From assembly GCA_005843815.1 (NCBI GenBank), contig SZYA01000046.1, positions 1 through 58,753 of the forward strand: a stretch of DNA of 58,753 nt. The letters run 5' to 3'. Shown piece by piece: positions 47,666 through 55,130 of the stretch (positions are counted from its first letter, which is position 1; each line of letters begins with the position of its first letter). The position numbers were made by a program, and so were the translations under genes. The notes below the pieces were generated by a model. The model searched no databases, was not told where the DNA came from, and saw nothing but the letters and a program-made list of their open reading frames with translations. This DNA comes from Chlorobium sp. GTDB taxonomy: Bacteria; Bacteroidota; Chlorobiia; Chlorobiales; Chlorobiaceae.

Positions 47666-48096
47666 CTTTTCTTTAACATTTATTCTTTGTGCACACAGTT
47701 CGTGTCAGATAGGAAAAAATACAAAATTATTATTTATTCCAAGCTCAAATTTCTACATGGCTCAACTTTCTCCAGTGCGCACTATATAACAAAGAAAATA
47801 AGCTGGCGAATAAACTGGCAGTGATTTCTCTCCGGGTTAATTTTGTTTATTTGATAAAGCTTTAGTATAATAGGGGGGTTAAGTCCAAACTTGGAATGTG
47901 GTTTCCTGTGCTAATATGTAGCGTTCATGGCGTTGGTTACCCTTGAACAGGAGAGGTAATAATAGATAGTATAACCATCAGTTCGTTTTTGTTTTAGTGG
48001 CAAGTCAGGTTGGCAGGTTTTTCTCATGAGATGACCGTTGGAGTAACTCTGAGTCATTAATTTTAATTATATATCTCTAAATTACTGCGTAAAGTG

Positions 48097-50241
48097 ATGA
48101 GATCACGTAAAGCATTTTTTTTTATCGCCATGGCTGGTATTGCCATACTGACTGAACCTTGTATAGGTCATGCGGCAAAGCAAAAAAAAGCAAAAACACC
48201 CAAAAACCGTGTTCAAGAGAGTTCAACCGTTACTCCTGTCTCGATGGATTTGTTCAGGGATGGCACTCTCGACAAGCAGTCAACGCTGAAACTTGCGTCA
48301 ACCCTCTTTACCAATAAAGAGTATAAAGATGGAGATGAGGTCGCTGCCAGACTTGTGGAGTTATACCCAAAGGATGCTTTTGTTTTGAAGAAAGTTATCG
48401 AACTCTATTTGGCTGTGCAAAATGCCGAAAAGACTCTTCCGTTGTATGAGCAGTTGAGAAAAATTGATCCTCAGAATGCTCAGGTGATACTTAATGCGGC
48501 CAGAGCATATTCGTGGACTGGACGTTGGGATACAGCGCTGAAACTCCTTGATACTGTTGTCAGTTCCGGTGATACTAGTAATGCCATTCAGCGCGAATAT
48601 GCTGATGTGCTCTATAACAGCAAACAGTATGTAACCGCGAGCGAGTATTACCAGAAACTTTTTGAAAAAAACAGACAGAAAGATTACGCGATCGCTTTTG
48701 TTTATAAGCTTTCAGCAGTCAAAGAGTTGGTGGAGGCGAAAAAGTTACTGGACTGTGTTGAAAAGTACTATCCTAAGGATATTTCTCTCCTTGAAACCAA
48801 GGCAAATCTTGCTTTGGGGCGAGGGGACTTAACCGAAGCGTTAAAGATATGTGAGGAGCTGATCCAACGCTCACCCAAAAATCGAACAAACCAGACCGCG
48901 TTGTTAATCAAGGCTGAGATTGCGAGTTGGCAGAAAGAGTATGCAACCTCCCTTGGCAGTTATGACAAATTGATTGCCAGCGACAGTAACCATCACAGCG
49001 ATTATTTTCGCATAAAGGCGTATCGAGAAAAGGGGCGTGTGCTTGGATGGATAGCGAAATATGGAAAAGCTACGGCTACGTACGATGAAGGTGTTCGCGC
49101 ATATCCTGAGAGCAAAGAGCTAAAGGCTGAAGCAACGGCCAAAAAGAATTATTATCGCGGTGCTTATCGACCGGCACTCAAAGCATACAGGGAGTGGTTG
49201 CTGATTGAGCCCAATGAGCCTGAAGCACTTTTTGACCTTGGACAGCTCTCTATGCAGAATGGTCGCTGGAAAGAGGCTAGGGAGACGTATAAACTTTTGT
49301 TGACCGAGATGCCTGGACATCGTCAGGCCGCACTGGCGCAACAGAAAAACAGCATCCTCTCTTCCATGCCGCTACTCCATAGTGGTGCCGAATATGTCAA
49401 GAGTGAATGGAAAAGCATGAATGTTACCTATTCAGGAGCCTATTCCTCGATCTCGTGGCCTTATGGGGACCAATTCTCCGGTTTTATGCGTCTGGATCAC
49501 AAGTCGTTTCGTTTTGAAAATTCAACAGGAAACGTCAGCCAACATAATATAACGACAGGGTTTGAATACCGAAACATACCTGATATCCTGTTTCGGGGCG
49601 CTTATGGCTATCACGTCAACTCCGGAAAATCAACAGGCGCTCATACCGGCTTTGTAGAAACTCAAAGCGAGCCACTGAATAACATTCACCTTGGATTTGC
49701 CTTTCGTCGTGAAGAGGTGATTGATAATGCGGAGACATTTCGGAGAGGACTCAAAAGAAATAGATTACAGGGACGCGTTACATACGACGGTTATCGCAAC
49801 TGGAATGCAGGCATGGACTACGATATTGCAAACTATTCAGATGCTAACCAAAGTCATACCACTGGCGGTGATGTTACCGCTCATCTCCTCTTTGGACAGA
49901 GGCACCTGAATCTTGCTTACCGGTTTCAGAACTATGGATTCTCCAGTTCGACACCTCATATCTACTGGAGTCCTGCATCGTTTAACACTCACTCATTAGG
50001 TATGGAGTTCCGAAACTATTTTAATGATGAACTTTTTCAGGGTGTGAATGAAACTTATTATTCAACTTCTTACAAAATTATTGCTGAACCTGAAAATAAT
50101 ATATCGCACCAGATTCGTGCAATGTTGTATCACGACTGGAGTAACCACTTTTCCACCTCAATTGAGGGACAGTATTCTTGGGCAACCAAGGCTTTCTACG
50201 AAGACAAGCTGCTTAAAACAGAGATCCGGTGGTTTTTTTAA
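48097..50241 (+). CDS. TPR-repeat outer-membrane beta-barrel protein, candidate exopolysaccharide export porin
   Basis: Signal peptide, about 400 aa of TPR, C-terminal beta-barrel-like repeats ending in FF (KTEIRWFF). Confidence 0.8.
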   Translation: MRSRKAFFFIAMAGIAILTEPCIGHAAKQKKAKTPKNRVQESSTVTPVSMDLFRDGTLDKQSTLKLASTLFTNKEYKDGDEVAARLVELYPKDAFVLKKVIELYLAVQNAEKTLPLYEQLRKIDPQNAQVILNAARAYSWTGRWDTALKLLDTVVSSGDTSNAIQREYADVLYNSKQYVTASEYYQKLFEKNRQKDYAIAFVYKLSAVKELVEAKKLLDCVEKYYPKDISLLETKANLALGRGDLTEALKICEELIQRSPKNRTNQTALLIKAEIASWQKEYATSLGSYDKLIASDSNHHSDYFRIKAYREKGRVLGWIAKYGKATATYDEGVRAYPESKELKAEATAKKNYYRGAYRPALKAYREWLLIEPNEPEALFDLGQLSMQNGRWKEARETYKLLLTEMPGHRQAALAQQKNSILSSMPLLHSGAEYVKSEWKSMNVTYSGAYSSISWPYGDQFSGFMRLDHKSFRFENSTGNVSQHNITTGFEYRNIPDILFRGAYGYHVNSGKSTGAHTGFVETQSEPLNNIHLGFAFRREEVIDNAETFRRGLKRNRLQGRVTYDGYRNWNAGMDYDIANYSDANQSHTTGGDVTAHLLFGQRHLNLAYRFQNYGFSSSTPHIYWSPASFNTHSLGMEFRNYFNDELFQGVNETYYSTSYKIIAEPENNISHQIRAMLYHDWSNHFSTSIEGQYSWATKAFYEDKLLKTEIRWFF

Positions 50242-50267: not shown

Positions 50268-51782
50268 ATGCGTGACAAGAAAAATTCCTGGTTTCTGATT
50301 GTACAGATAGTATTGCTGTTAGTTCTGCTCGCCATCTATGTTGGTGTTCGAGTTTATTATATCTTGATTGCGCCATTCACTCCGTTTGAGCTCATCTTTA
50401 GTCTGATTTTTTTTGTCGCGGAAATTTTTATTCTGTTCCACTCTTTTTTCTTTTTTGTGGATGTGTTGCGCGAAAATTTAAATCCATTAACACCGCCACA
50501 GATGAGCCCTGGCGAGGATGCCTCTGTGGCCATTTTAATACCAGCTCGTCATGAATCGAGGGAAATTATCGAAACAACACTCCTGACATGCAAAAACATC
50601 GCCTATGAAAACAAGAATGTTTACCTTCTGGATGACTCAACTATTGAAAGTTACAAGCTTGAAGCCAAGGAACTTTCAGAACAACTGGGCGTTAATCTCT
50701 TTACCCGCAGTGACAACCGTGGGGCGAAGGCTGGCATGATTAATGAGGTGTTGAAAACTCTTGATGAAAAGTATGTCGCTATTTTTGATGCCGACCAGAA
50801 CCCCATGCCCGTGTTTTTGAAGACACTTGTCCCTTTTCTTGAAGCTGATGCACAGCTTGCGTTTGTTCAGACCCCGCAGTTCTATTCAAATGGAGACGAA
50901 AGCACTGTCGCGATGACCGCGCATAACCAACAGGCTATTTTTTATGAGTATATCTGTCTTGGCAAAACAATAAACAAGGCAATGTTTTGTTGTGGCACAA
51001 ATGTTGTTTTCCGTCGCGCAGCGTTAAATAGTGTTGGTAATTTTGATGAAGAGACCGTAACAGAGGATATTGCCACCTCACTGAAGCTCCATACAAAAAG
51101 CTGGAAATCATTTTTTATTCACAAAGCTTATACGTTTGGTATGGCTCCTGAGGATTTGGCTGCCTACTTTACACAGCAGAACCGCTGGGCATTGGGAACA
51201 TCACAACTTTTTCGAAAACTTGTTAAAATCTTTTTTACCGACATAAAGTCTCTTCGCCCTGAACAGTGGCTTGAATATTTCATATCTACAACCTACTATT
51301 TTATTGGGATAGCATATTTTATACTGATGGCAGGTCCCATCATGTATATCTTTCTGGATATCAACTCCTATAATATTGATTCCTTTATCTATTCTATTAC
51401 ATTTATTCCATTCTTCATCCTATCTAATCTCGTTTTTTACGGGAGTATGGTTAAGAAAAAGTATAAACTCGGCAATATGATCAAGGTACAGATGCTGACC
51501 GCTCTCTCTATGCCTGTCTATTTGAGTGCTTCAATTGTTGGCATACTGAATATCAGCAAGAAAGGTTTTCAGGTAACTCCAAAGGGTAACTCCTCAAATG
51601 TTCCATGGAAGAGTCTTTGGCCACAATTACTACTGATTGCTACAGTTTTTGTAACATTCACTTGGGGAATTGTGAGGCTGATGACGAATGATGGTGTTCA
51701 GAGCATACTCGGTGTCAATGTCTTTTGGATGGGTTTTCAGCTTCTTTTGCTGAGTGGACTTTTTCATTTCAACAGAAAATGA
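50268..51782 (+). CDS. BcsA-like processive family 2 glycosyltransferase (no PilZ domain)
   Basis: FDADQNPMP (DxD), VTEDIATSLKLH (TED), TQQNRWALGT (QQxRW), N- and C-terminal TM segments; 504 aa. Confidence 0.9.
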   Translation: MRDKKNSWFLIVQIVLLLVLLAIYVGVRVYYILIAPFTPFELIFSLIFFVAEIFILFHSFFFFVDVLRENLNPLTPPQMSPGEDASVAILIPARHESREIIETTLLTCKNIAYENKNVYLLDDSTIESYKLEAKELSEQLGVNLFTRSDNRGAKAGMINEVLKTLDEKYVAIFDADQNPMPVFLKTLVPFLEADAQLAFVQTPQFYSNGDESTVAMTAHNQQAIFYEYICLGKTINKAMFCCGTNVVFRRAALNSVGNFDEETVTEDIATSLKLHTKSWKSFFIHKAYTFGMAPEDLAAYFTQQNRWALGTSQLFRKLVKIFFTDIKSLRPEQWLEYFISTTYYFIGIAYFILMAGPIMYIFLDINSYNIDSFIYSITFIPFFILSNLVFYGSMVKKKYKLGNMIKVQMLTALSMPVYLSASIVGILNISKKGFQVTPKGNSSNVPWKSLWPQLLLIATVFVTFTWGIVRLMTNDGVQSILGVNVFWMGFQLLLLSGLFHFNRK

Positions 51783-52900
51783 GGCGTTTTTTTTTACTGT
51801 TGTCTGTTTTTATTCTTCCGTTACTTTCAATAAACTGCGCTATTGTTCCACAAAATCCTGAGGAGATTGCTTTCTTCTCTTGGACTCACTATAAACAGAC
51901 CTTTATTCGTGGGGGGAGGGTTTTTCGCCCAAAAAATAATAATGATACCGTATCTGAGGGGCAGGCCTACGGGATGATTCGAGCTGTGCTGCTGGATGAC
52001 CGCAAAACATTTGATGAGTGCCTTACCTGGACTGAAGCACAACTCTCTAGAAAGAATTCTCATGGTGACAGGTTACTGGCATGGCATTTTGAAGATGGCA
52101 AAATTATCGATACAAAAGCAGCATCTGATGCCGATATTGATTACGCATACAGCCTTATTCTTGCTTCACGTAAGTGGGGTGACAAGAGCTACATGACACT
52201 GGCAAAAGGGGTGCTTGAGAGTGTTCTTGATCAAGAGACATCGATCATCAAAGGCAGGCTCTATTTTCTTCCCTGGCCAAAACAGAATAACCGGGATGGT
52301 GAAATTATTGCCTTGAACCCCTCCTACTATGCACCTTCTCATTTCAAGCTTTTTTTTGAAGTCAGTGGTGACAAGCGCTGGCTTGAGCTTGTCGATACGA
52401 CATACTTCATCCTCGATCGCCTTCTCGATTCCCCTGGCGAAGAGAATAAGGGAGGTTTTGTTCCTGACTGGATTGCTGTTGACCAGAATGGAACACTTGT
52501 TGAACTGCCCGGAAAACCGGTTGACTATGGATGGGATGCCGTAAGGGTACCACTTAGAATTGCTGCTGATTATTATCTTTACGGGGATAGCCGCGCTCTT
52601 GGTGTGCTTCGTCTTTTTTCGGCATTTTTTGAGAAAGAGTACACTGAACCATCAAAAAGCAAGACTTTAGAGAATGCGCTCTTTTACAGTGCGGTATACG
52701 CTGCAACTGAAACTGCTGGATCCCCTCTCTCATCGGCTATACTGCAACGCCTCAGAGAGTGTATTCGAAAAAACAATAAGGGATTCTATTACAACGATAA
52801 TAATGATTATTACATCAACAGCATCTCCTGGTTGCCTGAGTACTATAACATTATAAAATTAACCGGAAAACTGAAACATCCTCCACTCTCTGCAGGATAA
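51779..52900 (+). CDS. glycoside hydrolase family 8 (BcsZ-like endoglucanase)
   Basis: VSEGQAYGM (catalytic Glu), ASDADIDYAYSL, VDYGWDAVRVPLR; ATGA overlap with the GT2 gene. Confidence 0.9.
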   Translation: MRRFFLLLSVFILPLLSINCAIVPQNPEEIAFFSWTHYKQTFIRGGRVFRPKNNNDTVSEGQAYGMIRAVLLDDRKTFDECLTWTEAQLSRKNSHGDRLLAWHFEDGKIIDTKAASDADIDYAYSLILASRKWGDKSYMTLAKGVLESVLDQETSIIKGRLYFLPWPKQNNRDGEIIALNPSYYAPSHFKLFFEVSGDKRWLELVDTTYFILDRLLDSPGEENKGGFVPDWIAVDQNGTLVELPGKPVDYGWDAVRVPLRIAADYYLYGDSRALGVLRLFSAFFEKEYTEPSKSKTLENALFYSAVYAATETAGSPLSSAILQRLRECIRKNNKGFYYNDNNDYYINSISWLPEYYNIIKLTGKLKHPPLSAG

Positions 52901-53025: not shown

Positions 53026-53235
53026 ATGTCAGAAGAACAGGCAAGGGGGTTCATTGAGAAATTGAAAACTGACGCAAAGATGAGTGCGCGCCTTATTGCA
53101 TTCATCAAAAAGGAGGGCTTTTCGTGCACCGTGGAGGAGCTTGGCAAAGTGAATTGGGATGAGTTGATAGCCCTTCAGAATTCGGGAAGCGCCAGCGGAA
53201 GTTCCAGTCTGCCTGCCTCGGAACATTGGGGATGA
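53026..53235 (+). CDS. Nif11-domain small protein / Nif11-type leader-like peptide
   Basis: MSEEQARGFIEKLKTDAKMSARLIAFIKKEGFSCTVEELGKVNWDEL followed by a Ser/Gly-rich tail; RBS GGAGGGAG just upstream. Confidence 0.7.
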   Translation: MSEEQARGFIEKLKTDAKMSARLIAFIKKEGFSCTVEELGKVNWDELIALQNSGSASGSSSLPASEHWG

Positions 53236-53410: not shown

Positions 53411-53650
53411 ATGATCGAAAAACAAGAATTACTCCACAAAATATGCGCCATTGAGCAAAGCGAGGAATCGGTTATTTCCATTTACTCGAACCATATCCAG
53501 AATGTTTTAAGATATTCGACACTTGACGAAAGAGTACAGTCAAGAATTCTTGATATGTTGCAGCAGCTTGATGCCGATATGCAAATACAAAAGAACTACA
53601 CAAAGACTCTTATTGAATCCATAGAAAAAAGCACAAAAGATGTTTATTAA
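53411..53650 (+). CDS. small all-helical hypothetical protein (ferritin-like half-domain?)
   Basis: 79 aa; ...AIEQSEESVISIYSNHIQNVL...DMLQQLDADMQIQKNYTKTLIESI; stop overlaps the next start by 11 bp. Confidence 0.65.
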   Translation: MIEKQELLHKICAIEQSEESVISIYSNHIQNVLRYSTLDERVQSRILDMLQQLDADMQIQKNYTKTLIESIEKSTKDVY

Positions 53651-55043
53651 TAAGGATTTGCTCGACTTTTTCTCTTCTATGGCTGAGATTAAAAAACAAA
53701 AACGAGATGTTTTTTACACGCTCGCTGCGGAGGTGGATGATGCCGATGTTAAAAAGAGGCTCCTGCAAATTGGCAAGAATGAGCAGTTGCACGTTGATCA
53801 ACTGCAGCAAAGTATGGATCTCGTAAACGGAGCGCCATATCAGAATTTTGTGCCAGATATTCTGACTGAGACTCCATTGGTGCCATTTCAGATCCCCTTG
53901 GAGGATGTTTTGGTTGATGTTGACGATTCCGCCAGCACAGAATCAGCAGCCCATGCAGAGTTGCCTCACCATGATTTTGATGATGTTGTGCCGTTTTTAA
54001 GAGCTGTTGAGCCTGAACCGGATGAAAGTGAGGATACGACGATTGGCATGGCAGCAACTCACCTTGAAACATCTTTGCCTGATTCCGTGAACACCGGCAT
54101 AACACCGCTCGATACCATTAACCTCAATATTGACCAAGAGGAGCAGATAACACAAATCAGCTCTTTAAGTCATTTCAAACCCACAGCGTCGCAAAATTCT
54201 TTCAGTATGGACTATTTAAATCATCCGCTTGCTGAGGTCTTTGGTTTTACAACATCAGATCTCTCTTCCAAGGCACAACGGTATCGCTCTCACCACCATT
54301 GTCCTTTCAATAACCGTGTTCCCAACTGCACCAATGAGAATCCAAAAAATCCTCTTGGGGTATGCTCTCTTCTTCATAACAATAAAGCCGTAATTACATG
54401 CCCTGTTCGTTTTCGTGAAGAGTGGCTTATTACTGATGATGCCGCCTCATTCTTTTTCCCTGAGGGAGTTCGTTGGAGCTCTCTGACCGAGGTTGAGTTG
54501 ACTGATGCTTATGGTAAATCTTCCGGATCTCTTGATCTGGTTCTCGTCGCTTATGATGATTCCGGTAAAATAACTGATTTTGGAGCTATAGAGATTCAGT
54601 CAGCTTTTATCACTGGAGATGCTCGGGATCCATTCAACTTTTACATGAAGGATCCAAAGACAAACTCTTTGATGGATTGGTCTGCGCAGTCGAACTTTCC
54701 GCAACCAGATTATGTTTCGGCCATGAGGGAGAGCCTTGTGCCTCAGCTTATCTTCAAGGGCTCTATTTTGAATTCATGGAGCAAAAAATTGGCAATTTCT
54801 ATTGATCGTAGCTATTTCGAAGCGCTTCCGAATCTCGTACCTGTCGAAAAACAAGATGCAGAAATTGCCTGGTTTATCTATGATCTTGAACTGGTGGTAA
54901 ACGGAGAGAAGGAAAGCTATGAGCTCAAAAGGGCCAATGTTGTCTATACAAAATTCCAGCAGACACTTTCTGCGTTATCAATCTCCCATCCTGATAATAT
55001 TGAGCATTTCATGAAACTCCTTCCAGAACTTGCCGACAGGTAG
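53640..55043 (+). CDS. NotI-like restriction-endonuclease-domain protein with N-terminal ferritin-like helical segment
   Basis: N-terminus contains ExxH (NEQLHVDQL). C-terminal half has the CPF...NC...LGVC...TCP Cys4 pattern and IEIQ active-site-like motif, as in NotI. Confidence 0.72.
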   Translation: MFINKDLLDFFSSMAEIKKQKRDVFYTLAAEVDDADVKKRLLQIGKNEQLHVDQLQQSMDLVNGAPYQNFVPDILTETPLVPFQIPLEDVLVDVDDSASTESAAHAELPHHDFDDVVPFLRAVEPEPDESEDTTIGMAATHLETSLPDSVNTGITPLDTINLNIDQEEQITQISSLSHFKPTASQNSFSMDYLNHPLAEVFGFTTSDLSSKAQRYRSHHHCPFNNRVPNCTNENPKNPLGVCSLLHNNKAVITCPVRFREEWLITDDAASFFFPEGVRWSSLTEVELTDAYGKSSGSLDLVLVAYDDSGKITDFGAIEIQSAFITGDARDPFNFYMKDPKTNSLMDWSAQSNFPQPDYVSAMRESLVPQLIFKGSILNSWSKKLAISIDRSYFEALPNLVPVEKQDAEIAWFIYDLELVVNGEKESYELKRANVVYTKFQQTLSALSISHPDNIEHFMKLLPELADR

Positions 55044-55084: not shown

Positions 55085-55130
55085 ACCCCGAAAGAATCTT
55101 TTTATAGAGAAGGTTCTTTCGGGGTTTTTC
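55085..55130 (+). terminator. rho-independent terminator after the NotI-like gene
   Basis: ACCCCGAAAGAA ... TTCTTTCGGGGT followed by TTTTC. Confidence 0.88.

Follow-up and report, generated by a model that had tools for sequence, protein, structure and literature searches.

The arrangement of a NotI-type nuclease domain fused to a ferritin-like helical segment, preceded by a small helical protein and unaccompanied by a DNA methyltransferase, raises the question of what function a restriction enzyme fold performs outside restriction-modification (R-M). This locus is located in a 58,753-nucleotide Chlorobium contig, the whole of which is referred to here as the window. No description of a half-ferritin-NotI fusion was found in the open-access literature. 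The locus was investigated by domain, profile and structure searches, and by comparison with 99 Chlorobiales genomes, one per species, many of which are MAGs. The explanation we arrive at, and in which our confidence is evenly balanced, is that a NotI domain has been captured and domesticated for a non-restriction, mainly DNA-binding role.

Domains of the two proteins

The two genes and their surroundings are organized as follows.

48094..50241, + strand: TPR protein, polysaccharide operon (domain search, synteny)
50268..51782, + strand: GT2 cellulose-synthase-like glycosyltransferase, polysaccharide operon (domain search, synteny)
51779..52900, + strand: GH8 glycoside hydrolase, polysaccharide operon (domain search)
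53026..53235, + strand: Nif11-like leader-peptide gene, end LPASEHWG; found at NotI-fused loci, none beside NotI-less pairs
53411..53650, + strand: p79, 79-aa two-helix protein, half-ferritin partner; always upstream of the half-ferritin, H28 invariant
53640..55043, + strand: 467-aa fusion protein composed of half-ferritin, linker and NotI domain (ORF, domain search)
53640..53834, + strand: ferritin-like two-helix hairpin, N-terminal, residues 1-65 (model; standalone gene in 8 genomes)
53835..54224, + strand: linker, residues 66-195, variable, low-confidence model (dN/dS 0.26-0.74)
54225..55040, + strand: NotI domain, residues 196-467 (Pfam, profile, tree, structural match)
54300..54401, + strand: Cys4 metal-site region, C221, C230, C242 and C254 (alignment)
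54489..54599, + strand: catalytic quartet E284, D299, E318 and Q320, corresponding to NotI E145/D160/E182/Q184 (profile alignment)
54729..54734, + strand: E364-S365, at the site of the Lys-Arg pair found in each of 18 ordinary NotI-family proteins (alignment)
55085..55125, + strand: strong intrinsic-terminator-like stem of 19 pairs, between the unit and nifH

The C-terminal part of the 467-aa protein is, beyond doubt, a genuine NotI domain, as the preliminary description had proposed from the residue layout. Residues 209-423 match PF12183 at E=1.5e-51 (175.5 bits; Pfam cut-off 22), the protein matches the PADLOC REase_II model at E=3.4e-10, and a profile of 12 diverse NotI-family proteins detects the solved NotI sequence 3bvq at E=3.8e-7; NotI was not reached in the PDB by single-sequence or narrow-profile searches. 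The first structural matches of the predicted model are likewise 3c25 and 3bvq (E=2e-5 to 7e-5, prob 1.00), the NotI part of this model being of low confidence. The register given by the 12-protein profile places E284, D299, E318 and Q320 opposite NotI E145, D160, E182 and Q184, which we take to be the active-site residues of NotI, such that the E-x-Q motif noted earlier aligns with NotI E182/Q184. NotI has Gln where Lys is usual (PMC4081073) and contains an Fe-Cys4 centre (PMC4176176, PMC4081073). The four-Cys pattern compared with that centre in the preliminary description is borne out, all four cysteines being invariant in 25 fused and 12 ordinary proteins. As the Lys-Arg pair is missing while profile and fold are present, the protein is a NotI family member by descent and fold, minus that feature.

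The N-terminus is predicted to form two confident helices, H4-31 and H35-62 (pLDDT ~80), with structural matches to encapsulated ferritin 5n5e, EncB, PA2169 and sulerythrin, in agreement with the ferritin-like, ExxH-containing segment described from the sequence. Standalone homologues of the hairpin gave sub-cut-off Pfam matches which are mostly ferritin-like (DUF2202, 3e-4; DUF2383, 3e-4; Rubrerythrin, 2e-3). The ferritin ExxH is present in the window's protein; its His is gone in L004, L093, L094 and L110, and a conserved metal centre in the half-ferritin is therefore unlikely. For p79 the prediction is likewise a hairpin of two helices (pLDDT 84), and a structure search with this model returned neither a ferritin-specific nor any other specific fold match. 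The coordinates, lengths and 11-bp overlap given for the two ORFs are exact, and the coupling of the fusion gene to the small helical ORF is supported.

The gene pair and its polysaccharide operon

Conservation of the gene pair in relatives, on which the preliminary description had made its proposal depend, was observed. p79 and the hairpin domain co-occur in an identical set of 25 of the 99 Chlorobiales genomes, all belonging to one genus, and their genes are adjacent in every one. The second gene of the pair is fused to NotI in 17 genomes (357-543 aa) and free in 8 (68-104 aa, or 65-104 aa counting deeper relatives). Eight of the 17 (G071, G118, G217, G219, G227, G234, G235 and G239) contain two fused copies, at a different place, giving 25 fused proteins in all; the two copies are convergent, but lie on separate contigs in G217, and p79 precedes just one of them. 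A Nif11 gene is situated between the two copies (L028, L029, L099-L105), and the half-ferritin of the second copies is shortened and relaxed. A more sensitive profile added two genomes, G060 and G075, with the gene order p79, half-ferritin, TPR, GT2, GH8, p79 of G060 being a profile match absent from the ORF list. Since the NotI-less pair occurs in the operon of these deeper relatives, it most simply represents the ancestral state, suggesting that the helical pair is older than the NotI fusion.

Fused and free pairs mostly reside in the TPR-glycosyltransferase-GH8 polysaccharide operon. Of the 25 pair genomes, 24 carry the GH8 gene, versus 4 of the 74 others (Fisher p=8e-18, genomes being counted as independent despite their relatedness). 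In two-copy genomes the fused unit is away from this operon, indicating that the unit is able to exist outside it. Genome position links the pair to polysaccharide synthesis, a link which may not be functional.

Other neighbours were considered and set aside. A connection with nitrogen fixation is not sustained, as nifH lies downstream in the window, L001, L004, L106 and L110 and is missing in L002, L003, L108 and L109; in the window the nif operon is just a neighbour, the strong terminator lying in between. A RiPP maturation role via the Nif11 gene is not supported, as Nif11 genes whose C-termini are alike also turn up at various sites that lack the NotI unit. The Nif11-like genes of Chlorobium (window 53026-53235; L137, L144, L149, L152, L154 and L155) share their C-terminal ending, which reads LPASEHWx at loci with the NotI fusion and GYEHWxG at other sites. 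These genes are scattered and occur in multiple copies, and a maturation enzyme was not recognised in the small flanks read.

Catalytic residues, selection and methyltransferases

In ordinary NotI-family members neither the catalytic quartet nor the Lys-Arg pair varies (18/18). Among the 25 fused proteins the whole quartet is kept in five (the window, L001, L004, L106 and L110) and altered in 20, with three of the four positions changing: E284A in L108/L109, E318D, and Q320H in 16 proteins. D299 is retained in all 25. Mapped on the tree, the quartet underwent no changes over a length of 9.4 in the 18 ordinary members versus five over 2.5 in the fused proteins; under equal rates, the chance of five changes falling in 21% of the tree length and none in the other 79% is ~0.0004. 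The Q-to-H change is uniform across the two-copy clade, and these variants could still be catalytic. At the Lys-Arg pair (NotI K236-R237 by alignment), Arg is lost in 25/25 and Lys in 18/25 fused proteins. Conversely, Cys4 is intact throughout, and 53 of 96 columns invariant in ordinary NotI stay unchanged in all fused proteins. dN/dS for the NotI domain is 0.05-0.10 in fused versus 0.05-0.07 in ordinary proteins; the helical domain ranges from 0-0.08, reaching 0.36 in the second copies. The Cys4 site and NotI fold are thus under strong purifying selection. The loss of catalytic residues in most relatives, combined with such conservation, indicates a new, non-restriction job. The metal- or redox-linked nuclease activity suggested earlier becomes doubtful, as ExxH is unconserved, catalytic positions are substituted in most fused proteins and the Lys-Arg pair is broken in all.

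The strongest alternative is an active solitary defence nuclease, in which the NotI core would have acquired a changed specificity, for modified or foreign DNA or through conditional activation. If the p79/half-ferritin module holds or releases the nuclease, a methyltransferase would be unnecessary. Retention of E-D-E-Q in the window and four other proteins, of D299 and Cys4 in all, the altered area round the Lys-Arg pair in every fused protein, the strong purifying selection and the amplification to two copies at another place in several genomes are all consistent with this possibility. However, the substituted positions never vary in ordinary members, the linked neighbours are polysaccharide rather than defence genes, and the helical pair also occurs without any nuclease; we regard a solitary nuclease as unlikely, while according it appreciable weight. 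More improbable still is that the NotI fold serves as a structural or protein-binding module, without catalysis or DNA binding, in a polysaccharide-linked assembly. Loss of both the family-invariant Lys-Arg pair and catalytic residues would fit such a role, as would the NotI-less pair of deeper relatives, but the unchanged Cys4 core and 53 invariant columns argue against it.

In the tree, the 25 fused NotI domains group together in a single clade (support 100/100) beside the NotIs of Chlorobium R-M systems, relatives which come with a D12 adenine methyltransferase. An adjoining methyltransferase was likewise found in 6/6 plasmid ordinary NotI genes inspected; unlike these intact NotI-family genes, the fused genes have none beside them. 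Neither a PF02086 (D12) nor a PF00145 (C5) DNA methyltransferase was detected in the window's genome (G000, 90% complete), in which PF01555 methyltransferases occur on other contigs only, and no cognate-type enzyme was found in G000 or most fused genomes. The statement that this is not an ordinary linked R-M unit is thus upheld. Five fused genomes also contain a NotI-type D12 methyltransferase elsewhere, located by its own NotI gene or a contig-end NotI piece, and a distal cognate methyltransferase was consequently rejected as a general explanation. That this is a conventional type II enzyme served by a methyltransferase elsewhere in the genome, as the D12 genes of these five genomes and the PF01555 genes of G000 might suggest, is highly improbable given this distribution and the loss of catalytic and Lys-Arg residues across the fused clade. 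A phage or plasmid origin of the fusion was also discarded, as no fused homologue was found in the phage and plasmid collections that were searched, and the plasmid NotI genes found were of the ordinary form only. Among the other loci, L122, L124 and L125 carry NotI-type D12 methyltransferase genes without an adjoining NotI, apparently orphan R-M remnants, and L027 and L030 have frameshifted NotI genes, the adjacent methyltransferase gene of L030 being split too.

Proposed explanation and relation to known systems

Combined, these comparisons at the level of sequence show a single origin of the fusion, loss of the methyltransferase, a NotI-less pair in the same operon and a Cys4 core kept under strong purifying selection, while catalytic residues and the Lys-Arg pair were lost repeatedly. 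We propose that the gene for a NotI endonuclease was taken over from a Chlorobium R-M system in a single event that left the methyltransferase behind. It would have been fused to an older two-gene unit in the TPR-GT2-GH8 polysaccharide operon, made up of p79 and a ferritin-like half-bundle, the latter being the second gene and the one that received NotI. p79 and the half-ferritin hairpin would assemble as a helical-bundle docking module, and the NotI part, probably no longer a restriction enzyme, would serve chiefly to bind DNA, as an effector resembling a pseudonuclease that may act at the polysaccharide genes or close to them. The window's copy, judged by its full quartet, may still be able to nick or cleave DNA, its specificity having changed. 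The most specific form of this proposal, a metal-containing DNA-binding pseudonuclease docked on a heteromeric half-ferritin and either regulating the polysaccharide synthase operon or regulated by it, is offered tentatively.

If true, the pseudonuclease reading would represent a type II restriction enzyme used outside restriction. Living relatives trace the steps, from methylase loss and joining of the helical pair to partial loss of the cutting site with the fold under strong selection, so that the turning of a type II restriction enzyme to cellular use can here be put to the test. In addition, a small ferritin-like gene pair tied to polysaccharide synthesis in Chlorobium is now named.

With NotI itself (PF12183; 3bvq, 3c25) the fused proteins have fold and Cys4 in common, as well as E-D-E-Q in the window's protein; they differ in possessing a half-ferritin, in having no methyltransferase and a replaced Lys-Arg pair, and in that most orthologues are without the full catalytic set. 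The nearest relatives in the tree, the Chlorobium NotI plus D12 adenine methyltransferase R-M systems (such as L025 and L123), differ in that their NotIs are ~293 aa, have no helical domain and are directly followed by the methyltransferase. The half-ferritin shares a two-helix hairpin with an ExxH-like motif with encapsulated ferritin 5n5e, EncB and PA2169; unlike these, it is very short, has unconserved metal ligands, is paired with p79 and carries NotI. A precedent is provided by CoCoNuT systems, in which inactivated PD-(D/E)xK domains are retained, probably for nucleic-acid binding (PMC11090510), a likeness in that a restriction-type fold persists after loss of catalytic residues. Those are McrBC-type GTPase systems of unrelated architecture, and NotI is not named there (PMC11090510). 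By analogy with the proposal for CoCoNuT, the simplest reading of the NotI domain would be that of a DNA-binding or nucleic-acid-linked effector mounted on a helical docking module.
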